DNA of 64,000 bases, taken from Anaerolineae bacterium (lineage in GTDB: Bacteria; Chloroflexota; Anaerolineae; Promineifilales; Promineifilaceae). The stretch covers positions 310,001 through 374,000 of the forward strand of contig JAMLHW010000004.1 of assembly GCA_023954475.1 (NCBI GenBank). The letters are read 5' to 3'. Shown here in pieces: positions 6,317 through 35,592 of the stretch (its first letter is position 1; every line of letters begins with the position of its first letter). The notes below the pieces were generated by a model. It saw nothing but the letters and a program-made list of their open reading frames with translations. It had not been told where the DNA came from and searched no databases. Position numbers and translations under genes: made by a program.

Positions 6317-6345
6317 TTGACAGCCCGGGCTGATATTGATAAGAT
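6317..6345 (+). promoter_or_regulatory. pheST promoter
   Basis: Perfect -35 TTGACA (6317-6322), a 17-bp spacer, and -10 TAAGAT (6340-6345). The expected transcription start, about 7 bp downstream, falls on or next to the leader-peptide ATG at 6352, so the leader mRNA would have essentially no 5' untranslated region. Confidence 0.8.
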
Positions 6346-6351
6346 GACGTC

Positions 6352-6438
6352 ATGATGAAACGACTGGTTTCAACGCGATTTAGCTTCTTTTTTAGCATGG
6401 TAAACGACCCGCGCCGCAGCGCAGGAGTTGCACGCTGA
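6352..6438 (+). CDS. pheST leader peptide (Phe-rich)
   Basis: A 28-residue open frame beginning MMKRLVST and containing the run RFSFFFS (codons 6376-6396), with four Phe codons in six positions. It ends TGA at 6436-6438. It lies between the pheST promoter and a strong terminator, exactly the order seen in the E. coli pheST leader. It is too short for routine gene finding. Ribosome stalling at the Phe codons when charged tRNA-Phe is scarce would be expected to alter folding of the downstream RNA. A second ATG at 6355 is an alternative start. Confidence 0.8.
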   Translation: MMKRLVSTRFSFFFSMVNDPRRSAGVAR

Positions 6439-6471
6439 CAAGAAGCAATCACGTCAGACACGAACTTCACG

Positions 6472-6500
6472 AGACGCGGCTCGCCACCGCGTCTTTTTTT
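6472..6500 (+). terminator. pheST attenuator terminator
   Basis: The 8-bp stem AGACGCGG / CCGCGTCT (6472-6479 and 6487-6494) with a 7-nt loop runs into T7. It lies 34 nt after the leader stop codon and about 120 bp before pheS, so it must act as a regulated attenuator and not as the end of a gene. CCGCG inside the leader frame (6409-6413) can pair with CGCGG (6475-6479) as a short candidate antiterminator. A second hairpin, CTGAC / GTCAG (6435-6439 and 6453-6457), spans the leader stop. Confidence 0.85.
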
Positions 6501-6619: not shown

Positions 6620-7645
6620 ATGCTTGAAGAATTGGAACAATTACACGAGGCAGCGCTGCAACAGTTGGCAGCCGCCAACTCCGGTGACGACCTCGACAAC
6701 TGGTACAAACAAACGCTGGGTCGCAAAGGGTCGATTCAACTGTTGACGCGCAAGGTCGGCAGCCTGGCGGCTGACGATCGGCCGATTTTCGGCCGAAATG
6801 TCAACATCGCCAAAAAAGCGCTGCAGGAAGCGTACGACGCCCGTGCCCAGCAGGTCAAAATGGCCGAGTTGGCAGCCAAAATTTCGGCCGAAGCGCTCGA
6901 TGTCACCCTGCCCGGACGCGTGCAACCACAAGGTCGCCTGCACCCGATCACACAGACAATGCGCGCCATTTACCGCGTCTTCGGCGATATGGGCTTTCAG
7001 GTCTACCGCAGCCGCGACGTCGAAACAGACGAAATCAACTTCGAACTGCTCAACTTCCCGCCGCACCATCCGGCACGCGAAATGCAGGACAGCTTCTACA
7101 CCAACACGCCCGACGTGATTCTGCGCACCCACACCAGTGGCGGCCAGATTCGCGCCATGCACGAATACCATCCCGAACCGATTCGCGTCATTTTGCCCGG
7201 CATGTGCTACCGCAACGAGCAAATTACGACACGCAGCGAAATCCAGTTCACGCAGGTTGAAGGACTCGCCGTCGGCCACAACATCACCTTTGCCGACCTG
7301 AAAGGCACGCTGACCGAGTTCGCCCGTCGCATGTTTGGTGAAGAACGCGACACCCGTTTCCGCGCCAGCTACTTCCCGTTCACGGAGCCGAGCGCGGAGA
7401 TGGATGTCTCCTGCTTCCTGTGCGACGGTGACGGCTGTCAGGTGTGCAAATATACCGGCTGGCTCGAAATTCTCGGCTGCGGCATGGTGCATCCCAATGT
7501 GTTGCGCAACGGTGGCTACGACCCTGACACTTACACCGGATTCGCCTTCGGCCTCGGCCCCGAACGCATCGCCATGCTCAAATACGGCATTGACGACATC
7601 CGCTTGTTCTGGGCGAACGATTTGCGATTCTTGGAACAGTTTTAG
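6620..7645 (+). CDS. pheS: Phenylalanine--tRNA ligase alpha subunit
   Basis: Catalytic subunit of the alpha2-beta2 synthetase that charges tRNA-Phe with phenylalanine. At 341 residues it has the usual bacterial length. An N-terminal coiled-coil arm (about 1-85, recognises tRNA) is followed by the class II core. This contains the GRVQPQGRLHPITQT entry segment, motif 2 around FHTNTPDVILRTHTSGGQIR-like residues, and motif 3 GFAFGLGPERIAML near the C-terminus. The cysteine cluster CFLCDGDGCQVCKYTGW (about 265-281) is a common variant in this subunit. GAGGAAG about 9 bp upstream supports the ATG. pheT follows after 71 bp. Confidence 0.96.
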   Translation: MLEELEQLHEAALQQLAAANSGDDLDNWYKQTLGRKGSIQLLTRKVGSLAADDRPIFGRNVNIAKKALQEAYDARAQQVKMAELAAKISAEALDVTLPGRVQPQGRLHPITQTMRAIYRVFGDMGFQVYRSRDVETDEINFELLNFPPHHPAREMQDSFYTNTPDVILRTHTSGGQIRAMHEYHPEPIRVILPGMCYRNEQITTRSEIQFTQVEGLAVGHNITFADLKGTLTEFARRMFGEERDTRFRASYFPFTEPSAEMDVSCFLCDGDGCQVCKYTGWLEILGCGMVHPNVLRNGGYDPDTYTGFAFGLGPERIAMLKYGIDDIRLFWANDLRFLEQF

Positions 7646-7716: not shown

Positions 7717-10239
7717 ATGCAAGTACCTGTCTCATGGCTCGGCGAATACGTCGAGATCAAACACACTATTGAAGCACTGGCAGAGGTGCTGACCAACGCC
7801 GGACTCGAAGTCAAGACCATCGACTACATCGGCATTCCCGGTGCGGACCTGGAATGGGAACGGGACAAGTTGTTCCTGGCGCAGGTGATCGAGGTTGAAC
7901 AACATCCCGATGCTGACAAATTGGTATTGGCGACGGTTGAATATGGCGCAAATCGGCCGAAAACAGTCGTGACCGGCGCACCCAACCTGTTCCAATACGT
8001 CGGTGCCGGCGATTTGACCGAACGCCGCATATTCTCGCCCCTGATTCTGGAAGGCGCGACCTACTACGATCCGTACAAGAACAAGCGCAAGACGACGCTG
8101 AAAGGCCGTCCCTTGCGCGGCATCTACAACGACGCCATGCTCTGCTCCGAGGTCGAAATTGGTCTGGGCGACGGCCACGACGGTATCATCTTGATTCAAG
8201 AGGATGCGTACGGCCCGAAGTATGTGCCCGGCACACCGTTAGCCGACGTATTGGGCGATGCTGTGTTGGAAATCGACATCATTCCCAACATTGCCCGCTG
8301 CGCCTCGATTGTCGGAGTCGCCCGCGAATACGCGGCATTGACCGGACAAACCGTGCGCTATCCCAGCTACGACGTCGTCATGGAAGGCGCACGGGTCGGC
8401 GACCGCATCGTCATCACAACTGGGAATCCCGAATTCAACCCGCGTTTCTGCGCCCTTTTAATTGAAGGTGTCTCGCAAAAGCCCGCACCGTACTGGATGC
8501 AGCGCCGCCTGAAATTGGCGGGACAACGCCCGATCAATGTCATGGTCGACATCAGCAACTATGTCATGCTGGAGATGGGGCAACCCAATCACGCCTTCGA
8601 CTACGACTTTCTGCGCCGCCGTGCCGATGCGTATGCACCGGATGGTCCGGTGCAGATCATCACGCGCTTGCCACACGACGGGGAGACGTTGACGACGCTG
8701 GACGGTGAGGTACACAAGCTGCTGCCGGAGAGCATTCTGGTCACTGATCCACTGGGCAATCTCAGCCTGGGCGGCATCATGGGCGGCCTCGACAGCGAGA
8801 TCAAAGACGAGACGACGAATGTGCTGCTCGAAGCGGCGGCGTGGAATTTCATCAATATTCGCAAAACCGGGACGGCGCTCGGCATGCACACCGATGCGTA
8901 TTTCCGTTTCAGCCGTGGCGTGCATCCGAGCCAGGCGTTGCTAGGGGCGAAACGGGCTGCGGAATTGATGCGCGTTTTGGCCGGCGGGACGGTTGCGCGG
9001 GGGATCATCGACACGTATCCGGATGTACCGGAAACGGTTGTGGTCGATCTCGATCCGGTGTATGTGCGGCGGTTGAGTGGACTGGATCTGGATTCGGCCG
9101 AAATCACCACTCTCTTGCAGCGTCTCGAATTCACTGTCGAGCCGAACGGCGCGCTGCTGCGCGTCACCGTGCCCGATCACCGCATGGACATCGATGGGCG
9201 TCACGATCTCGTCGAGGAAATTTGCCGTGTCTACGGCTACGACCGCATTCCAAGCACGATTATTGCCGATGCATTACCGCCACAGCGCGGCAATCCCGAG
9301 TTGGAAGGGGAAGAGCTGATCAAGGATTTGCTCGCGCAGCAAGGGTTACAGGAAATCATCACCTACCGGCTGACTTCTCCTGAACTGGAAAACAAAATGC
9401 TGGTCACGACGGCACCGGATGATCGCCCCTACGTCAAACTGACTAATCCGATTTCCCCGGAGCGCCGCGTGCTGCGCCACAATTTGCTGGCGTCGGTACT
9501 CGACATCGTCGCCCGCAACAGCCGCTACCAGGAGCGCATCTGTGTTTATGAAATCGGCCAGATCTTTCTCGTCGATGAGGAAGAAATTTTACCGGAAGAA
9601 GCGGCATATCTGGCGTTGGCGATGACGGGCCTGCGCACAAATGCCCATTGGCAACAAGACGATTCGGCATGGATCGATTTCTATGATTTGAAAGGTGTGC
9701 TGGAAGCGCTTTTCGGCCGATTACGCGTCTCGGTCACTTACGAAGCATCTACCCACCCATCTTATCGACCCGGTCGCACAGCCAAACTGCTCATCGATGG
9801 ACAGCAAGTCGGCTGGATGGGTGAACTGCATCCGCTGGTCGCTGAAGCGCTGGACATTCGTCTCGAAAAAGGACAGGGTGTCTACGCCGCTGAGCTGAAT
9901 CTGCCCAATTTGCTGGCAGCCATTCCCGGGCAGACGCTGTTTCGGCCGATGTCGGCCTATCCCGCAGTGCGTGAAGATATCGCTCTGATCGTGGATTCGA
10001 CAATTCCTTCGGCGACCGTGGAGGCGGAGATAATTAAAGCGGGTGGTTACCTGTTGCAATCGGCCGAATTATTCGACGTTTACACCGGCAGTCAATTGTC
10101 GCCCGGTAAAAAAAGCCTCGCCTACCACCTGACATTTCAATCGCCGAACAAAACATTAACTGATAAAGAAACCGGCAAACAGCGCCAACGCATTGTCCGG
10201 CAACTTGAAAACACCCTCGGCGCCCGTCTGCGCGAATAG
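7717..10239 (+). CDS. pheT: Phenylalanine--tRNA ligase beta subunit
   Basis: Second subunit of phenylalanyl-tRNA synthetase, 840 residues. In order: an N-terminal tRNA-binding OB fold (LFLAQVIEVEQHPDADKL, about 52-70), the B3/B4 editing region, the B5 domain around 420-500, a class II-like core domain, and a C-terminal anticodon-binding FDX-ACB domain from about 745 (RPMSAYPAVREDIALIV, then LFDVYTG and KSLAYHLTFQSPNKTLTD). Length and order are normal. It is transcribed with pheS behind the Phe-rich leader and ends at a bidirectional terminator shared with the converging GH32 gene. Confidence 0.96.
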   Translation: MQVPVSWLGEYVEIKHTIEALAEVLTNAGLEVKTIDYIGIPGADLEWERDKLFLAQVIEVEQHPDADKLVLATVEYGANRPKTVVTGAPNLFQYVGAGDLTERRIFSPLILEGATYYDPYKNKRKTTLKGRPLRGIYNDAMLCSEVEIGLGDGHDGIILIQEDAYGPKYVPGTPLADVLGDAVLEIDIIPNIARCASIVGVAREYAALTGQTVRYPSYDVVMEGARVGDRIVITTGNPEFNPRFCALLIEGVSQKPAPYWMQRRLKLAGQRPINVMVDISNYVMLEMGQPNHAFDYDFLRRRADAYAPDGPVQIITRLPHDGETLTTLDGEVHKLLPESILVTDPLGNLSLGGIMGGLDSEIKDETTNVLLEAAAWNFINIRKTGTALGMHTDAYFRFSRGVHPSQALLGAKRAAELMRVLAGGTVARGIIDTYPDVPETVVVDLDPVYVRRLSGLDLDSAEITTLLQRLEFTVEPNGALLRVTVPDHRMDIDGRHDLVEEICRVYGYDRIPSTIIADALPPQRGNPELEGEELIKDLLAQQGLQEIITYRLTSPELENKMLVTTAPDDRPYVKLTNPISPERRVLRHNLLASVLDIVARNSRYQERICVYEIGQIFLVDEEEILPEEAAYLALAMTGLRTNAHWQQDDSAWIDFYDLKGVLEALFGRLRVSVTYEASTHPSYRPGRTAKLLIDGQQVGWMGELHPLVAEALDIRLEKGQGVYAAELNLPNLLAAIPGQTLFRPMSAYPAVREDIALIVDSTIPSATVEAEIIKAGGYLLQSAELFDVYTGSQLSPGKKSLAYHLTFQSPNKTLTDKETGKQRQRIVRQLENTLGARLRE

Positions 10240-23286: not shown

Positions 23287-23382
23287 GGGAGTGGCTGTGT
23301 CCCGGTGGGCGCCCCAGTCTTCAAAATTGGTGGCCGGTCGCGCAGAGCGAGCGGCGGTGGGTTCGACTCCCATCCATTCCCG
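23287..23382 (+). tRNA. selC: tRNA-Sec (anticodon TCA)
   Basis: The sequence folds as a selenocysteine tRNA of 96 nt. The 8-bp acceptor is GGGAGTGG / CCATTCCC with discriminator G at 23382. The 6-bp D stem is GTGTCC / GGGCGC with a 4-nt loop. The anticodon stem CCAGT / ATTGG surrounds the 7-nt loop CTTCAAA, whose central triplet TCA reads UGA. A very long variable arm (GCCGGTCGC / GCGAGCGGC, one mismatch) follows. The T arm is GTGGG-TTCGACT-CCCAT. The 8-bp acceptor and large variable arm separate it from tRNA-Ser. CCA is not encoded. It implies that the organism makes selenoproteins, but selA, selB and selD are not in this window. Confidence 0.95.
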
Positions 23383-28067: not shown

Positions 28068-28095
28068 TTGACATTCTTCCTCGATTTGTTACGAT
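28068..28095 (+). promoter_or_regulatory. Arginine-cluster promoter
   Basis: Perfect -35 TTGACA (28068-28073), 16 bp, TACGAT (28090-28095). Transcription should start near 28102-28103, one or two bases before the leader ATG at 28104. Confidence 0.72.
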
Positions 28096-28103
28096 TGTGA
28101 GCC

Positions 28104-28184
28104 ATGTCAACTTTGGCTGATGCACTATTCATTCGACGCCGACGCCCGGACTCATTCCACGGTCTGGCATGGTGCGTTGCCTGA
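28104..28184 (+). CDS. Arginine-cluster leader peptide (four consecutive Arg codons)
   Basis: A 26-residue open frame that begins MSTLADALFI, continues with four Arg codons in a row (CGA CGC CGA CGC, 28134-28145), then PDSFHGLAWCVA, and stops at TGA 28182-28184. It lies between a strong promoter and a terminator, upstream of argC. A codon run for the end product of the operon is the hallmark of ribosome-mediated attenuation. The frame has almost no upstream Shine-Dalgarno sequence and may be translated from a leaderless mRNA end. The peptide itself is probably not functional. Confidence 0.8.
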   Translation: MSTLADALFIRRRRPDSFHGLAWCVA

Positions 28185-28256
28185 ATTCAGCCTCAGCCCA
28201 CCACAAGCAAAGCGTAGTTTCACCCGCCAGACTCAGCACAGTTTGGCGGGTTTTTT
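28162..28256 (+). terminator. argC attenuator: antiterminator and terminator
   Basis: The terminator stem is CCCGCCA (28223-28229) with TGGCGGG (28244-28250), followed by T6 at 28251-28256. GTCTGGC inside the leader frame (28162-28168) is perfectly complementary to GCCAGAC (28226-28232), the left side of the terminator. A ribosome stalled at the Arg codons (28134-28145) leaves GTCTGGC free to pair and block termination. A ribosome that reaches the stop codon at 28182 covers it and lets the terminator form. No other gene on this strand ends here, so the terminator must serve the leader. Confidence 0.82.
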
Positions 28257-28322: not shown

Positions 28323-29321
28323 ATGATTAGAGCAGGCATTTTCGGTGCGACGGGGTATACGGGGTTTGAACTGGTGCAGATTTTGAATCGACACCCAAGC
28401 GTAACGATTGCGTTTGCGACATCGGAGAGTTATGCGGGACAGACGCTGGACATGATTTTTCCGACGGCTCCAGCAATTGAGTTGGTCAGGAGTGAGGATG
28501 CGCCGCTGGATTCGGCCGATACCGTATTCCTCTGCCTGCCACACGCTGCTGCAGCCGCCACCGCCGTACGCGCACTCAATGCGGGCTTGCGCGTCATCGA
28601 TCTGAGTGCCGACTTCCGCCTCAAAGACGTGGAGACGTACAACGCATGGTACGGCGTCGCGCATCCCGCGCCCAAATTACTCAATGAAGCCGTTTATGGC
28701 CTGACGGAAATCGCCCGTGACCAGTTGCCGACAGCGCGGCTCGTCGCCTGTCCCGGCTGCTACCCGACAAGCGTCTTGCTTGCAGTCAAGCCGATATTAG
28801 AAGCGGGGCTGGCAACGGGAACGATCATCGCGGACTCGAAGTCGGGCGTTTCCGGTGCGGGACGCGCTCCCAAGCAGCACACGCATTTTGTCGAGGCGAG
28901 TAACAATTTTTCGCCATACAATATCGGCCGAAAACATCGCCATCTCCCCGAAATCGAACAGGTCATGCACTGGTTCGATCCCGATGCGCCCGATCTGATC
29001 TTTTCGCCCCACCTGCTGCCGGTACCGCGCGGCATTCTCAGCACCGTTTACATCCCGGTCGGCGCTGTGGATGAGGCGACCTTGCGCGATTTATATACGC
29101 CATACGATACTGAGCCGTTCATCCATGTGTTGCCGGCAGGGCAACTGGCAACGCTGGCACATGTCGTCCACACCAATCATTGCGTCATGGCCCTGACCAA
29201 AGTCAACGGTATGTTGATCGTCACATCAGCCATCGACAACCTGCTCAAAGGCGCAGCAGGTCAGGCTGTGCAGAACATGAATGTCATGTTTGGCCTCGAC
29301 GAAACAACGGAATTATTGTAG
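28323..29321 (+). CDS. argC: N-acetyl-gamma-glutamyl-phosphate reductase
   Basis: NADPH-dependent reduction of N-acetylglutamyl phosphate to the semialdehyde, third step of arginine synthesis. At 332 residues it has normal length. The nucleotide-binding GATGYTG (9-15) lies at the N-terminus and the catalytic Cys sits in ACPGCYPTS (about 143-151). SGVSGAGR and the GRKHRHLPEIEQ segment with the catalytic His are also present. It is the first gene of the arginine cluster, downstream of the Arg-rich leader and attenuator. A palindromic repeat separates it from argB. Confidence 0.96.
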   Translation: MIRAGIFGATGYTGFELVQILNRHPSVTIAFATSESYAGQTLDMIFPTAPAIELVRSEDAPLDSADTVFLCLPHAAAAATAVRALNAGLRVIDLSADFRLKDVETYNAWYGVAHPAPKLLNEAVYGLTEIARDQLPTARLVACPGCYPTSVLLAVKPILEAGLATGTIIADSKSGVSGAGRAPKQHTHFVEASNNFSPYNIGRKHRHLPEIEQVMHWFDPDAPDLIFSPHLLPVPRGILSTVYIPVGAVDEATLRDLYTPYDTEPFIHVLPAGQLATLAHVVHTNHCVMALTKVNGMLIVTSAIDNLLKGAAGQAVQNMNVMFGLDETTELL

Positions 29322-29374: not shown

Positions 29375-30121
29375 ATGCGTGTACTTAAAGTTGGCGGAAA
29401 CGAACTGAAAGATGCTCACTTCCTGAGTGGTTTGGCTGCTGCAATGGCTGCATTTGATGAGCCGGTCGTGATCGTGCACGGTGGCGGGCAGGCGATTGCC
29501 GATTTGCAAACGGCGCTTGGGTTGCCGATTGAAAAAGTCGATGGTTTGCGTGTGACCAGTGAAGCAGCGATGAACGTCACGGAAATGGTGTTATCCGGAT
29601 ACACGAACAAACTTCTTGTGCGAGCATTGCTGGCGGCGGATGTGAATGCAATTGGTCTAAGCGGCGTCGACAGCGGTTTGTTGATAGCGCGGAAGAAGGT
29701 ACATGATTCGGCCGATTTGGGCTACGTCGGCACAGTTATGGCCGTCAATACACCGCTGCTCGATCTCTTGCTGACCGAAGGTTTCACGCCAGTCGTGTCG
29801 CCCGTGTCGCTCGGTCTCGACAACCACGCCTACAACGTCAACGCCGACGAAGCGGCAACCGCCATCGCCGCCGCGCTCGAAGCCGATCAGCTCGACTTCA
29901 TCTCCAACGTCCCCGGCGTCCTCCAAAACGACACACTCATTCTCCAACTATCCAACCATCAAACCAACCAACTGATAGCCGATGGCGTCATCTTCGGCGG
30001 CATGATTCCCAAAGTGCGCGCCGCCCTCAATGCTGTCGAAAAAGGGGTCACACAAGCACGTATCGTTAACTTGGCAGGATTGAACACAGACTCTGGTACA
30101 CTTTTCAGAGTTGAAGCATAG
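29375..30121 (+). CDS. argB: Acetylglutamate kinase
   Basis: Phosphorylates N-acetylglutamate, second step of arginine synthesis. 248 residues in the amino-acid kinase fold. KVGGNEL opens the first strand, VIVHGGGQAI (about 31-40) binds phosphate, and LDNHAYNVNADEAATAIAAAL and SNVPGVL form the substrate and nucleotide sites. The protein is shorter than arginine-inhibited hexameric kinases and lacks an N-terminal inhibitory helix, so feedback control by arginine may rest on transcription or another protein. argD follows after 83 bp. Confidence 0.95.
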   Translation: MRVLKVGGNELKDAHFLSGLAAAMAAFDEPVVIVHGGGQAIADLQTALGLPIEKVDGLRVTSEAAMNVTEMVLSGYTNKLLVRALLAADVNAIGLSGVDSGLLIARKKVHDSADLGYVGTVMAVNTPLLDLLLTEGFTPVVSPVSLGLDNHAYNVNADEAATAIAAALEADQLDFISNVPGVLQNDTLILQLSNHQTNQLIADGVIFGGMIPKVRAALNAVEKGVTQARIVNLAGLNTDSGTLFRVEA

Positions 30122-30204: not shown

Positions 30205-31398
30205 ATGGACAACAACGCAATCATTCAAGCCGAAGCAAACAATATCGTTCAGACCTATATTCGGCCGAAACCCGTTTTCACACACGGCAAGGGCGTGTAC
30301 CTCTATGACAGCGACGGCAACGAATACCTCGACTTTGTCGCTGGAATCGCCGTCATGGCGCTCGGCCACAGCGACCCCGAGTGGATCGCTGCCGTCAACG
30401 CACAAGCCGGACAGTTGACTCACGTCAGCAACCTCTATTACACTGCACCTCAGGTCGAATTGGCACAAAAACTGGTCGCCACATCGTTTGCAGACAAAGT
30501 TTACTTCTGCAACTCCGGTGCCGAAGCCAACGAATCGGCAATTAAATTTGCACGCAAATACGCCCGTGTCGTGCATGGTCGCGACGACAAAACGAACATC
30601 GTCGCTTTCAGCGGCAGTTTTCACGGGCGTACGATGGGGGCGCTGGCCGTCACGCTGCGCGACAAATATCAGAAGGCGTTTGAGCCGTTGATGCCCGGTG
30701 TCGTTCGGGCAGAGTACAACGACCTCGCTTCGGCCGAAAACGCCATTGATGACCAGACTTGCGCCGTAATTGTTGAACCGATACAGGGTGAAGGTGGTGT
30801 GCGACCTGCTTCGGCCGAATTCCTGCATCATCTACGCCAACTGTGTGATCAACACGGCGCATTGCTCATTTTCGACGAAGTGCAATGCGGCCTGGGCCGC
30901 ACCGGCACATTGTGGGCCTACGAACAATACAACATATTACCCGACATGCTCACAGCCGCCAAACCGTTGGCCGGTGGCTTGCCGATTGGTGCAACGCTTG
31001 CTACCGACGCCGTCGCCGACGTGATGCAGCCGGGCGACCATGCCAGCACCTTCGCCGGTGGCCCACTCGTCTGTTCAGCGGCCCAAATTGTGCTCAATCG
31101 CGTCGCTAAACCGGCATTTTTGGCCCAAGTGCGCGACAATAGCGCCTACATGATGGCACAGCTTCGCCAACGCCTCACAGGTGACGATGTGGTCGAGATT
31201 CGCGGCTGTGGCTTCCTGATCGGTGTCGAGTTTGCCCATCCGGTGAACGATCTGATCACAGCGGCACTGGCGCACGGATTGATCGTTGTCAATGCCGGCC
31301 CGAATGTGTTGCGTCTGGTGCCACCGCTGATCGTCAGCCGTGAGCAAATCGATACCGCAATCGGAATTCTAGTGTCCTGTCATACAACAGACACTTAA
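30205..31398 (+). CDS. argD: Acetylornithine aminotransferase
   Basis: PLP-dependent transfer of an amino group to N-acetylglutamate semialdehyde to make acetylornithine. 397 residues with the class III aminotransferase layout: FCNSGAEANESAIKFARKY, IVAFSGSFHGRTMGAL, VEPIQGEGGVRPAS, LLIFDEVQCGLGRTG, then TAAKPLAGGLPIGA, in which the Lys is the PLP-binding residue. GAGGAAC about 6 bp before the ATG is a plausible ribosome site. Followed after 29 bp by a membrane protein gene. Confidence 0.95.
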   Translation: MDNNAIIQAEANNIVQTYIRPKPVFTHGKGVYLYDSDGNEYLDFVAGIAVMALGHSDPEWIAAVNAQAGQLTHVSNLYYTAPQVELAQKLVATSFADKVYFCNSGAEANESAIKFARKYARVVHGRDDKTNIVAFSGSFHGRTMGALAVTLRDKYQKAFEPLMPGVVRAEYNDLASAENAIDDQTCAVIVEPIQGEGGVRPASAEFLHHLRQLCDQHGALLIFDEVQCGLGRTGTLWAYEQYNILPDMLTAAKPLAGGLPIGATLATDAVADVMQPGDHASTFAGGPLVCSAAQIVLNRVAKPAFLAQVRDNSAYMMAQLRQRLTGDDVVEIRGCGFLIGVEFAHPVNDLITAALAHGLIVVNAGPNVLRLVPPLIVSREQIDTAIGILVSCHTTDT

Positions 31399-31427: not shown

Positions 31428-32150
31428 ATGGATGTATTCACCCAGATATTAACAGATGTATTTGCTCTGACCGTCGATGTTATGGCTGCATTCTTTGTTG
31501 CATTCGGTATCGCGTTTGGGTTTGCATCGCTGTTTGCCGGGCGGCGCCTGTTCTGGATTTTTACCGGCGCGGTCGGTTTAACTGCCGGATTCTACATCGG
31601 ACGGGAATTGCTGGTGGATTCACCGCACTTCGTGACGGCCACATTGACAATCGTGCTTGGCATTCTCGGTGCACTCGCAGCGCTCTATCTGGCAAAACCC
31701 GCCGCGTCACTGGCCGCGTTTATCGTACTGGGCTCGCTGGCCTACATCGTTGCATCCGCTGCAACGCTGCCGGACTGGCTGACGTGGGTGCTGTTCGCCG
31801 GGCTTGGTATACTCGCTGCCGTTCTGGCATGGCGCTGGTTTGATTGGGGCGTGATCATCAGTTCGGCTCTTGTTGGCGCGATTGTGGCGGCAGTGGGTCT
31901 GAACGCCGTGATTGGCCTAGTGCCGTTGGTTGGCACTGGTCTGTTTTTTGTGTTGCTCGTTGCCGGTATCTGGTATCAGGCACGGGATATGCGCCGGACG
32001 CGCCGATACGAAGCTCAAACAAAGCCGGTCGCCGTTGCGGGTGCGGCTAAGGTGGCGCGTACCGAATCGGAGCAAGCGGCCTCGGCGCAACCGACAACGC
32101 TCACAGTCGATGTCGAACCGGAATCGGCCGAAACTGATCCATCTGTATGA
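31428..32150 (+). CDS. Multi-spanning membrane protein of unknown role in the arginine cluster
   Basis: 240 residues with about seven to eight predicted membrane helices between residues 15 and 185, followed by a basic-then-polar cytoplasmic tail of about 55 residues. The helix pattern with GFxxGxxxG-like turns recalls TMEM198/DUF4203-type proteins. No catalytic motif is seen. AGAGGAAG 7 bp upstream supports the ATG. It overlaps the NAGS-like gene by 4 bp, so it is translated together with arginine genes. It could be a transporter for an intermediate or an unrelated passenger. Confidence 0.7.
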   Translation: MDVFTQILTDVFALTVDVMAAFFVAFGIAFGFASLFAGRRLFWIFTGAVGLTAGFYIGRELLVDSPHFVTATLTIVLGILGALAALYLAKPAASLAAFIVLGSLAYIVASAATLPDWLTWVLFAGLGILAAVLAWRWFDWGVIISSALVGAIVAAVGLNAVIGLVPLVGTGLFFVLLVAGIWYQARDMRRTRRYEAQTKPVAVAGAAKVARTESEQAASAQPTTLTVDVEPESAETDPSV

Positions 32151-32629
32151 CATCTACTGTGCACACGGCAGTCGTCAGGCCGGCTACGGTTGACGACCTG
32201 CCGGGTATGATGGCGCTTATTCACGAATTTGTGCGGCGCGGCGACATTTTGCCGCGCACCGAATTATCCGTTCGCATGAGTATCAACGACTGGGTCATCG
32301 CTACACTCGACGGTCAGGTAGTGGGCATCGGATCACTGCTGATCTATTCACCGCTGTTGGCCGAAGTGCGTTCGCTAGCGGTGTCGGAGCAAGCGCAGGG
32401 ATATGGTTTCGGCCGAAAAATCATCGACGAACTACTCAGTATGGCTGCCGCCTACCACATTCCGACCGTCTTCGCCCTGACCCGTGTCGTCCCGTTCTTC
32501 GAGCGCATGGGCTTTACCGTCACCGAAAAAGAAGCCTTTCCCGAAAAAATCTGGCGCGCCTGTCGCCTCTGCCCAATTCAGGACAACTGTGACGAGATAG
32601 CGGTTGTTGCAAAGTTAGAGATAGAGTAA
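32147..32629 (+). CDS. Short N-acetylglutamate synthase-like GNAT acetyltransferase
   Basis: Predicted to transfer acetyl from acetyl-CoA to glutamate, feeding the arginine cycle. 160 residues, a single GNAT domain. VRPATVDDLPGMMALIHEFVRRGDILPRT opens the fold, VRSLAVSEQAQGYGFGRKI is the acetyl-CoA loop, and the C-terminal KIWRACRLCPIQDNCDE cysteine motif is typical of the short ArgA-type synthases known from actinobacteria. Its place in a complete arginine cluster supports the call. Since ArgJ recycles acetyl groups, this enzyme would be needed only to top up the pool. Confidence 0.78.
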   Translation: MTSTVHTAVVRPATVDDLPGMMALIHEFVRRGDILPRTELSVRMSINDWVIATLDGQVVGIGSLLIYSPLLAEVRSLAVSEQAQGYGFGRKIIDELLSMAAAYHIPTVFALTRVVPFFERMGFTVTEKEAFPEKIWRACRLCPIQDNCDEIAVVAKLEIE

Positions 32630-33041: not shown

Positions 33042-34307
33042 ATGTCAAAACCAGAAGTCAAAAAAGCCGTCCTCGCCTACTCCGGTGGGTTAGACACATC
33101 TGTCATCGTGCCGTGGTTGCGCGAGAACTACGGCTGTGAAGTGATCTGTTTCTGCGCCAATATCGGGCAGGAGGCAGACGAACTCGAAGGTCTTGTCGAG
33201 AAAGGTCTTGCCAGCGGTGCGAGCAAAGTTGTCGTCAAGGATTTGCGCGAAGAATTCGCCGCCGATTTTCTGTTCCCGATGTTGCAGTCAGGCGCTGTCT
33301 ACGAAAAACGCTACCTGCTCGGCACATCGATCGCCCGTCCGCTGATCGCCAAATGGCAGGTCGCCATCGCTGAAGAAGAAGGTGCCGATGCCGTCTCGCA
33401 TGGTGCCACCGGCAAGGGCAATGACCAGGTGCGCTTTGAACTGACCTATAAGGCGCTCAATCCAACATTGACTGTGGTTGCGCCGTGGCGCGAGTGGGAA
33501 ATTCGTTCGCGTGAAGATGCGCTGGCGTACGCGCGTAAATTTAACGTGCCGGTGACACACACCGAGAAATCGATCTACAGTCGTGACGCCAACCTGTGGC
33601 ATCTGTCTCACGAAGGCGGCATTCTCGAAAATCCGGCCAATGAGCCTGAAAAGATCATGTACCAGATGACGATTGATCCGATGGATGCGCCGGATGAGCC
33701 GGAAATGGTTGAAATCCAGTTCGAGGAAGGCGTGCCGAAAATGGTCAACGGTGTGGCGCTGAGCCCGGCCAGTGTCGTTGCTGAATTGAACATGATTGGC
33801 GCACGGAATGGCATCGGCCGAATTGATCTCGTCGAAAACCGTCTGGTCGGCATGAAATCGCGCGGCGTGTACGAAACACCCGGCGGCACCCTGCTCTACG
33901 CCGCCCATCGCGAACTCGAATCACTCTGCCTCGACCGCGATACCTTGCACTTCAAAGAACAACTAGGCGTGCGCTACGCTGAACTCGTCTACTTCGGCAA
34001 GTGGTATCACACCCTGCGCGAAGCAATGCAGGCATTCATCACCGAAACACAATCGACCGTTTCGGGTTGGGTGCGCTTCAAACTGTACAAAGGCAACGTC
34101 ATCGTCATGGGTCGCTACAGCCCCAACAGCTTGTATCGTGAGGATTTCGCCACGTTTGGTCAGGAAGATGTCTACGATCAGAGTGATGCCGTCGGTTTCA
34201 TCAACTTGTTTGGCCTGCAAATGAAGGTCAAGGCGATGATGGAAGTCAGCGGCGGCGGACGGACGAAGTACGCTGCGCCGGATTACAATGTTTTCAAACG
34301 AGATTGA
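33042..34307 (+). CDS. argG: Argininosuccinate synthase
   Basis: ATP-dependent condensation of citrulline and aspartate, next-to-last step of arginine synthesis. 421 residues. [10 protein letters not shown] (13-22) is the ATP pyrophosphatase loop. [15 protein letters not shown] and [15 protein letters not shown] are substrate-binding signatures. Length is normal for this branch. CAGGAG 7 bp upstream supports the ATG. A GGTGG / CCACC hairpin can form just before the ribosome site (33000-33024). Confidence 0.97.
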
Positions 34308-34365
34308 GGATATCGGATTTTTGATTTCGGATTTCGGATGATACCTTTCCGAAATGGGAGTATTC

Positions 34366-35592
34366 ATGACCATCACGTCTCTTCCCAACGGCTCGATCAC
34401 CTCACCACGCGGTTTTCGCGCCGGATCGGTGATCGCTAACATCAAATATCGCGACCGGCTCGACCTGACATTGCTCGTATCCGACACGGATTGTGCAACG
34501 GCGGGCGTATTCACGCGCAGCCAGGTCGTGGCCGCACCGGTGATCGTGTCGCGCGAGACGTTGCAAGCCAATGCCGCTGCGATCCGGGCAGTGGTTGCCA
34601 ATGCAGGCAACGCCAATGCATGTACGGGCGAACCGGGTTTGGTTGCGGCGCGAGCGATGCAGCAGGCCGTTGGTGACGCGCTGGGATTTTCGGCCGAATG
34701 CACCCTCGTCCTTTCCACCGGTGTCATCGGACTCCCCATGCCGGTTGACAAACTACGCGCCGGCATCGACGCCGCAGCCAAGCTGCTGAATGCTGACGGC
34801 GGCCAACTGGCGTCACAGGCGATCATGACCACCGACACGCACCCTAAATCAGTTGCTGTGCAGGTTGCGCTGTCGGGTGGCGCGATCACAATCGGCGGCA
34901 TGGCTAAGGGATCGGGCATGATCCATCCTGACATGGCGACGATGCTGGGCGTCATCACAACCGATGCTGCCATCGATCCGAGTACACTGCACTCGTATTT
35001 GCGTCGCGCCGTCGCTGTCAGCTTCAACCGCATCTCGGTCGACGGCGATACGAGTACCAATGATACGGTTTTACTGCTGGCGAATGGTGTGTCTGGGATT
35101 GAGTTTGATTCGGCCGAAGATGACGCGGCCTTTCTCGCCGGACTGACATCAGTTTGCCAGCAATTGGCGCACATGATCGTCCGCGACGGCGAAGGCGCGA
35201 CCAAATTCGTCGAGATTACTGTCAACGGCACGAGCAGCGACACAACCGCCCATGCCATCGCCAACACCATTGCCACATCCCCGCTGGTCAAGACGGCGTT
35301 CGCCGGCAGCGACCCCAATTGGGGACGCATTTTGGCGGCGGCCGGTCGAGCGGGCGTGTCTTTTGACCAAACGGCGTGCGATTTGTGGATTGGCAATGAT
35401 GGTTTGACATGGCTGCAATTGCTGGCTAGTGGTACGCCCACCGATTACGCCGAAGACGGTGCAGCTATGATCTTTGCCGCAAGTGACATCGTCGTTCGCT
35501 TGTCGGTTGGCTGTGGTGATGGCACTGCAACAGTTTGGACGTGCGATCTGTCGCATGATTACGTGACGATCAACGCCGATTACCGGACATGA
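34366..35592 (+). CDS. argJ: Bifunctional ornithine acetyltransferase / N-acetylglutamate synthase
   Basis: Moves the acetyl group from acetylornithine to glutamate, closing the acetyl cycle. About 408 residues. The ATG at 34366 has GGGAG 5 bp upstream and is preferred over the ATG at 34354. NAGNANACTG lies at the N-terminal domain. The autocleavage site is in KGSGMIHPDMATMLG, where the Thr of ATML becomes the N-terminal nucleophile of the beta chain. GSDPNWGRI marks the C-terminal part. Its stop overlaps the ACT-protein start by 4 bp. An inverted repeat, TTTCGGA / TCCGAAA, lies in the argG-argJ spacer. Confidence 0.96.
   Translation: MTITSLPNGSITSPRGFRAGSVIANIKYRDRLDLTLLVSDTDCATAGVFTRSQVVAAPVIVSRETLQANAAAIRAVVANAGNANACTGEPGLVAARAMQQAVGDALGFSAECTLVLSTGVIGLPMPVDKLRAGIDAAAKLLNADGGQLASQAIMTTDTHPKSVAVQVALSGGAITIGGMAKGSGMIHPDMATMLGVITTDAAIDPSTLHSYLRRAVAVSFNRISVDGDTSTNDTVLLLANGVSGIEFDSAEDDAAFLAGLTSVCQQLAHMIVRDGEGATKFVEITVNGTSSDTTAHAIANTIATSPLVKTAFAGSDPNWGRILAAAGRAGVSFDQTACDLWIGNDGLTWLQLLASGTPTDYAEDGAAMIFAASDIVVRLSVGCGDGTATVWTCDLSHDYVTINADYRT

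Follow-up and report, generated by a model that had tools for sequence, protein, structure and literature searches.

In textbooks, arginine synthesis serves as the model of control by a repressor, ArgR. Leader-peptide attenuators are described for the trp, his, leu, thr, ilv and phe operons of Proteobacteria and Actinobacteria, where an ORF with a codon run is combined with 1:2, 2:3 and 3:4 pairings and an intrinsic terminator ahead of the operon. According to a study from 2010 that surveyed premature terminators genome-wide, leader peptides had previously been known only in these two phyla, to which it added the Firmicutes (PMC2965389); its main text contains no mention of arginine, Chloroflexi or Herpetosiphon. 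In the Actinobacteria, a survey published in 2005 saw no conserved RNA structure at any arginine operon; for arginine elsewhere it cited only T-boxes (PMC1262725).

Arginine codons do act as sensors in other settings. The leader ORF orf34 of Salmonella speF senses arginine through consecutive Arg codons, but it controls an ornithine decarboxylase via Rho, masking of the ribosome-binding site and RNase G, with no intrinsic terminator before arginine synthesis (PMC6386406). In Staphylococcus aureus, the rbfL upstream ORF likewise senses arginine through its Arg codons, but here low arginine represses rbf translation and there is no terminator (PMC13009471). Leaderless leader ORFs also have precedents. 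The trpL attenuator ORF of Sinorhizobium meliloti starts at the transcript 5' end, although it serves tryptophan (PMC7298713), and several Streptomyces lividans leaders are leaderless (PMC8079986). The authors of the latter paper present an Ala leader before alaS (alaL) as the first of its type; its position matches that of the Ala-run elements described below, its alanines are scattered, and no Arg or Lys leader appears among the leaders compared here (PMC8079986). Escherichia coli argL (MNNYTYKVNFNSISGVRHARIKCPIYTKNTF; NC_000913.3 290275-290370) is a small ORF at an arg gene (argF), annotated as a putative translational regulator. It was rejected as a precedent: an Arg run is missing, the ORF overlaps argF, and the scan gave no terminator there.

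The locus described here lies in Anaerolineae bacterium GCA_023954475.1 (contig JAMLHW010000004.1), within a stretch of 64,000 nt that was analysed as a whole (the window), and occupies window positions 28068-28256. Differently to the attenuators listed above, it carries Arg codons, precedes an arg operon and belongs to the Chloroflexota. An earlier note on this DNA had supposed that an Arg leader before argC would be new or rarely described. In keeping with this, no report of a leader-peptide attenuator for arginine synthesis in bacteria was found in open-access full texts; subscription literature lies outside this search, so priority is uncertain. The mechanism would be classical attenuation, which is already known, and its use for arginine synthesis would be new as far as searched.

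The leader upstream of argC

The features of the locus are collected in Table 1. The promoter, the 26-codon frame with four consecutive Arg codons and the perfect 7-bp antiterminator had all been recognised in the earlier note and are found as it described them: the promoter is recovered by reading and by a promoter scan, and GTCTGGC (28162-28168) and GCCAGAC (28226-28232) are perfectly complementary in antiparallel orientation. The note also gave a 7-bp terminator with T6; the T6 tail stands, but fold and terminator scan extend the stem to 12 bp. Two parts had escaped it. One is the segment 1 strand of the 1:2 hairpin, CCGGACT, for which GGTCTGG (28161-28167) is a possible partner; the other is that the leader ORF starts almost leaderless, its ATG lying 8 nt past the -10 box. 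Its remark that no gene ends at the terminator is correct. The gene upstream of the element is divergent, and argC starts 66 nt past the terminator. The locus thus contains an Arg-codon leader ORF before an arg operon, an antiterminator and a terminator made mutually exclusive by their common segment 3, a 1:2 hairpin that abuts the Arg run and could be masked by a stalled ribosome, and a stop codon placed for coverage of segment 2.

Table 1. Features of the argC leader, the arginine genes and the phenylalanyl-tRNA synthetase genes (window positions)
Feature	Position	Strand	Basis and remarks
Promoter: TTGACA 28068-28073, spacer 16 nt, TACGAT 28090-28095	28068-28095	+	sequence and promoter scan
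Leader peptide ORF MSTLADALFIRRRRPDSFHGLAWCVA, 26 codons; ATG 28104, stop TGA 28182-28184	28104-28184	+	sequence
Outer stem, 5' strand GGCTGA; partner 28187-28192	28115-28120	+	MFE and centroid fold; encloses the leader ORF and lengthens the 1:2 hairpin
Putative regulatory codons, four Arg in a row (CGA CGC CGA CGC)	28134-28145	+	sequence
Segment 1, CCGGACT, directly 3' of the Arg codons	28146-28152	+	fold; pairs with segment 2 into the pause (anti-antiterminator) hairpin
Segment 2, GGTCTGGC, within the leader ORF	28161-28168	+	sequence, alignment; antiterminator 5' strand
Outer stem, 3' strand TCAGCC	28187-28192	+	fold
Intrinsic terminator (segments 3:4): 12-bp stem 28222-28233 / 28240-28251, 6-nt loop, T6 tail	28222-28256	+	fold, terminator scan, covariation
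Segment 3, CGCCAGACT	28225-28233	+	sequence, alignment; serves as 3' strand of the antiterminator and as 5' arm of the terminator
argC, first gene under putative control; Shine-Dalgarno-like GGAG at start	28323-29321	+	NCBIfam TIGR01850, above cut-off
argB, acetylglutamate kinase	29375-30121	+	TIGR00761, above cut-off
argD, acetylornithine transaminase	30205-31398	+	TIGR00707, above cut-off
GNAT-type N-acetyltransferase	32147-32629	+	highest-scoring NCBIfam model NF005840 at 150.4 bits, below its cut-off of 154
argG, argininosuccinate synthase	33042-34307	+	NF001770 and TIGR00032, above cut-off
argJ, glutamate N-acetyltransferase	34354-35592	+	NF003802 and TIGR00120, above cut-off
pheS	6620-7645		translation read
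pheT	7717-10239		translation read

The GNAT-type enzyme encoded between argD and argG is possibly the N-acetylglutamate synthase of the cluster. Elsewhere in the window, a selenocysteine tRNA gene is found at 23287-23381 on the forward strand (Rfam RF01852, 63.1 bits).

How would such a leader switch? Transcription usually starts about 7 nt past the -10 box. In about 28 of 32 orthologous leaders the ATG lies 6-10 nt past that box, which would put the AUG at the 5' end or no more than a few nucleotides from it and makes a leaderless leader mRNA probable. Known ribosome footprints indicate that a ribosome stalled on the Arg codons would cover segment 1 and spare segment 2, and that segment 2 would be covered once the ribosome has reached the stop codon. 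In computed folds, the RNA left free by an Arg-stalled ribosome, with segment 4 absent, folds exactly into the 2:3 antiterminator, and the RNA that lies beyond a ribosome halted at the stop codon folds into the terminator. The predicted energies are -21.1 kcal/mol for the terminator (12 bp) against -13.3 kcal/mol for the antiterminator (7-8 bp). The completed terminator being the stronger structure, the switch would therefore have to work kinetically.

The proposed sequence of events begins with RNA polymerase starting at the TTGACA promoter and a ribosome loading on the leader AUG at or near the 5' end. When arginine is low, the ribosome would stall on the Arg codons and mask segment 1, leaving segment 2 free to pair with segment 3 once this is made; no terminator would form and argC would be transcribed. 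When arginine is high, the ribosome would reach the stop codon and mask segment 2, segments 3 and 4 would pair and transcription would end at the U-run (28251-28256). If the leader is not translated, the long 1:2 hairpin would form and termination would follow. Here we infer four things, the start site, the translation of the ORF, the response to arginine and termination in vivo.

Conservation and covariation

An Arg leader with a terminator precedes argC at 38 of 41 Anaerolineae loci (a set that includes near-duplicates, as two sources span the same genomes). Outside the phylum the figure is 3 of 62 argC loci, and among shuffled sequences it is 5 of 410. The rule applied was an ORF of 8-45 codons with at least three Arg in five residues and a terminator 25-140 nt past the run. 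Three Anaerolineae loci fail it: L015, because its attenuator sits further upstream, L030, because its sequence contains little upstream DNA, and L040. Typical orthologous leaders are MNTFIDSQALRVIRRRRQTHRLVFELA, MKNFTTRFVRRIRRRQTNGLVFSVV, MRNFVNLTPLFIRRRRQTIGLDFEVA and MNHFADNQAPRRFRRRRRTPRSGF, with a median of five Arg codons (20% of residues). The codons used are mainly CGC (68 of 139) and CGT (48 of 139), both also the commonest in sampled genes, a choice that fits a leader sensing how much arginine is available and does not suggest one sensing a rare codon. Most orthologues have CCAGACC as segment 1 after the Arg run, GGTCTGG as segment 2, where it codes for Gly-Leu and one further residue, and CCGCCAGACC and GGTCTGGCGG as segments 3 and 4. 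The TTGACA-16-TAnnnT promoter is present in about 28 of the 32 orthologous leaders and, under the rule used, absent from 2 of the 32 aligned loci. The spacing is also kept: in the 32 loci the last Arg codon lies 9-18 nt ahead of segment 2 (mode 12), and in 25 of them the stop codon lies exactly 21 nt past the segment 2 start.

The earlier note had proposed aligning argC upstream regions of relatives and had stated that its reading would fall if close relatives had lost the Arg run or the pairings. Neither is lost. Run and pairings persist throughout the family and order of this bacterium, and they can still be recognised in further Anaerolineae families as well as in Herpetosiphon; the alignment retains the Arg run and contains compensatory changes in both pairings. 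In distant Anaerolineae families, Arg-run leaders occur before argC and argG. Before argG, Arg-run leaders with terminators stand in three genomes that belong to another family; at argD, one such leader was seen, in a genome from the window's family. Under the same rule, none of 20 argC upstream regions from families in other classes of the phylum has the leader, nor does any of four Chloroflexus-like loci.

Covariation was measured in an alignment of 32 argC-upstream loci. For the terminator, 98.2% of cells are paired and 9 of the 12 pairs are changed on both sides, a level reached by none of 500 shuffles, and slid controls stay at or below 51%. The 1:2 hairpin is paired in 93.3% of cells across the 32 orthologues. 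For the antiterminator, 99.1% of cells are paired with six doubly changed cells (no shuffle of 500 as high, slid controls at most 50%); by a weaker measure, the number of pairs with double changes, it scores 2, a level that 40 of 500 shuffles reach. Why is the covariation of the antiterminator so modest? Segments 1-4 have one common, highly conserved sequence, and few changes are tolerated because the same letters serve up to three pairings. Part of the antiterminator signal is accordingly plain conservation.

The clearest test of covariation comes from the Herpetosiphon-type loci. There, the architecture is kept and all segments are changed together: GAGGTTCGG pairs with CCGAACCTC over 9 bp, and at a second locus GGTTCAG pairs with CTGAACC. 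The leaders of both loci contain LRLRRPRT. Herpetosiphon aurantiacus is a cultured species with the argC-leader architecture but with entirely different pairing sequences; its leader is found about 290 nt upstream of argC, on the minus strand of the chromosome near position 5,292,830.

Absence of ArgR and alternative explanations

No match to ArgR (PF01316) was found in this genome (5.1 Mb, 97.9% complete), in which positive controls matched, and in the class only 3 of 150 genomes gave matches, all weak. Control of this cluster by ArgR and an ARG box was rejected, since the genome lacks the ArgR gene. Other families of the phylum do have ArgR, frequently encoded on the contig that bears argC, and at four loci from ArgR-bearing genomes the region upstream of argC showed no Arg leader. 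This small sample suggests that ArgR and the Arg leader may replace each other in Chloroflexota, and mutual exclusion is possible.

The conserved pairing could be recognised by something other than a ribosome. In a protein-dependent or metabolite-binding attenuator, an RNA-binding regulator of CCAGACC/GGTCTGG or an arginine riboswitch would act and the ORF would be incidental. The unusual conservation of the pairing sequence within Anaerolineae speaks for this, but the ORF start, its frame, the Arg run, the spacing and the stop position are all conserved as well, Herpetosiphon retains ORF and pairings and not the sequence, and paralogues exchange Arg for Ala before alaS while other leaders have Lys before lysW, as codon reading predicts. 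Nor is there a match to any Rfam family: in the window and 20 related loci the amino-acid leader families (Trp, His, Leu, Thr, Phe) gave no hit at gathering score and only unrelated hits below threshold, and the T-box model matched neither the element nor related loci. Such an attenuator is therefore very improbable here. We give slightly less weight still to an arginine-sensing ORF whose effect would be on the translation or the stability of the transcript, with the hairpin as a stability element. Arginine-sensing upstream ORFs of that kind exist (orf34-speF, PMC6386406; rbfL, PMC13009471); at the argC loci, however, a canonical U-tailed 12-bp terminator is conserved together with a mutually exclusive antiterminator, and about 55 nt separate the U-run from the ribosome-binding site of argC, which takes no part in the conserved pairings.

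Terminator-like sites are common, with a mean of 0.6 per shuffled 500 bases, and an ordinary constitutive terminator could by chance lie behind an Arg-rich frame. The probability of this is negligible, and the comparative sequence data already refute it, given the contrast between Anaerolineae, other phyla and shuffles reported above. A short ORF with RRRR arose in just 3 of 3000 dinucleotide shuffles of 28068-28256, and the terminator has no gene ending at it. The leader fold is 3.1 sd below shuffles, none of 200 reaching its energy. In about 0.85 Mb of the genome, screened on both strands for a promoter, a near-leaderless short ORF, a terminator and an antiterminator, this is the sole site where every part is present together with a strong codon run. 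The 5.1-Mb genome has a single occurrence of the terminator motif, CGCCAGAC-loop-GTYTGGCG, and this rules out a generic terminator motif as the explanation. A second copy in this genome was likewise rejected: leaving out the reverse strand of the site itself, one further match has E < 1 (E 0.008), and it is an ordinary terminator behind an aminotransferase-like gene.

The element is thus very probably a classical ribosome-mediated attenuator that would sense charged tRNA-Arg and control argC-B-D-...-G-J. Sequence parts, pairing, conserved geometry, covariation and wide conservation are all demonstrated at the level of sequence. The earlier note's reading as a ribosome-mediated attenuator gains from these results: the Arg run, the pairings and the geometry are conserved, ArgR is absent and no Rfam family matches.

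Leaders for other amino acids

A covariance model of the element, searched in 396 genomes of the class (E ≤ 0.01), matches in 79 of them, the weakest matches not all being real (for example L174, L175 and L179). Strong second matches in the same genomes lie before alaS and have Ala in place of the Arg run, e.g. MKRLNQHPTTISAAAAASQTSGLDCCAA and MNQTTILTANAAAASQSPGLAGCAA. The Ala-run form before alaS is seen in many genera of the window's family, and alaS of the window's own genome has no Ala leader. Upstream of lysW-lysX-lysY, Lys-run leaders were found in 9 of 10 genomes of the family and in none of 10 outside it. Most of the nine have two such leaders in tandem, each with its own terminator.

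The window itself contains a further candidate. At 6317-6497, a TTGACA promoter is followed by a near-leaderless ORF, MMKRLVSTRFSFFFSMVNDPRRSAGVAR, with a Phe-rich run and by a terminator, GAGACGCGG...CCGCGTC-TTTTTTT. This is probably a second attenuator, placed before the phenylalanyl-tRNA synthetase genes.

For the ArgR-less Chloroflexota, we lean towards an origin in which one ancestral chassis with a leaderless ORF was copied and its codon run swapped (Arg at argC, argG and argD; Ala at alaS), the tandem Lys attenuators at lysWXY being separate. If this is true, amino-acid control by leader peptides would be a general regulatory layer of the group, reaching beyond the textbook amino acids. 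With this attenuator, arginine, and probably lysine, would join the amino acids with synthesis under leader-peptide control. With a near-leaderless ORF and an Arg-to-Ala swap within one scaffold, the evolution of attenuator specificity becomes directly testable, and H. aurantiacus offers a cultured host in which to study the attenuator. A deeply conserved attenuator before argC would represent a different solution from ArgR, in a phylum whose gene regulation has been little studied.
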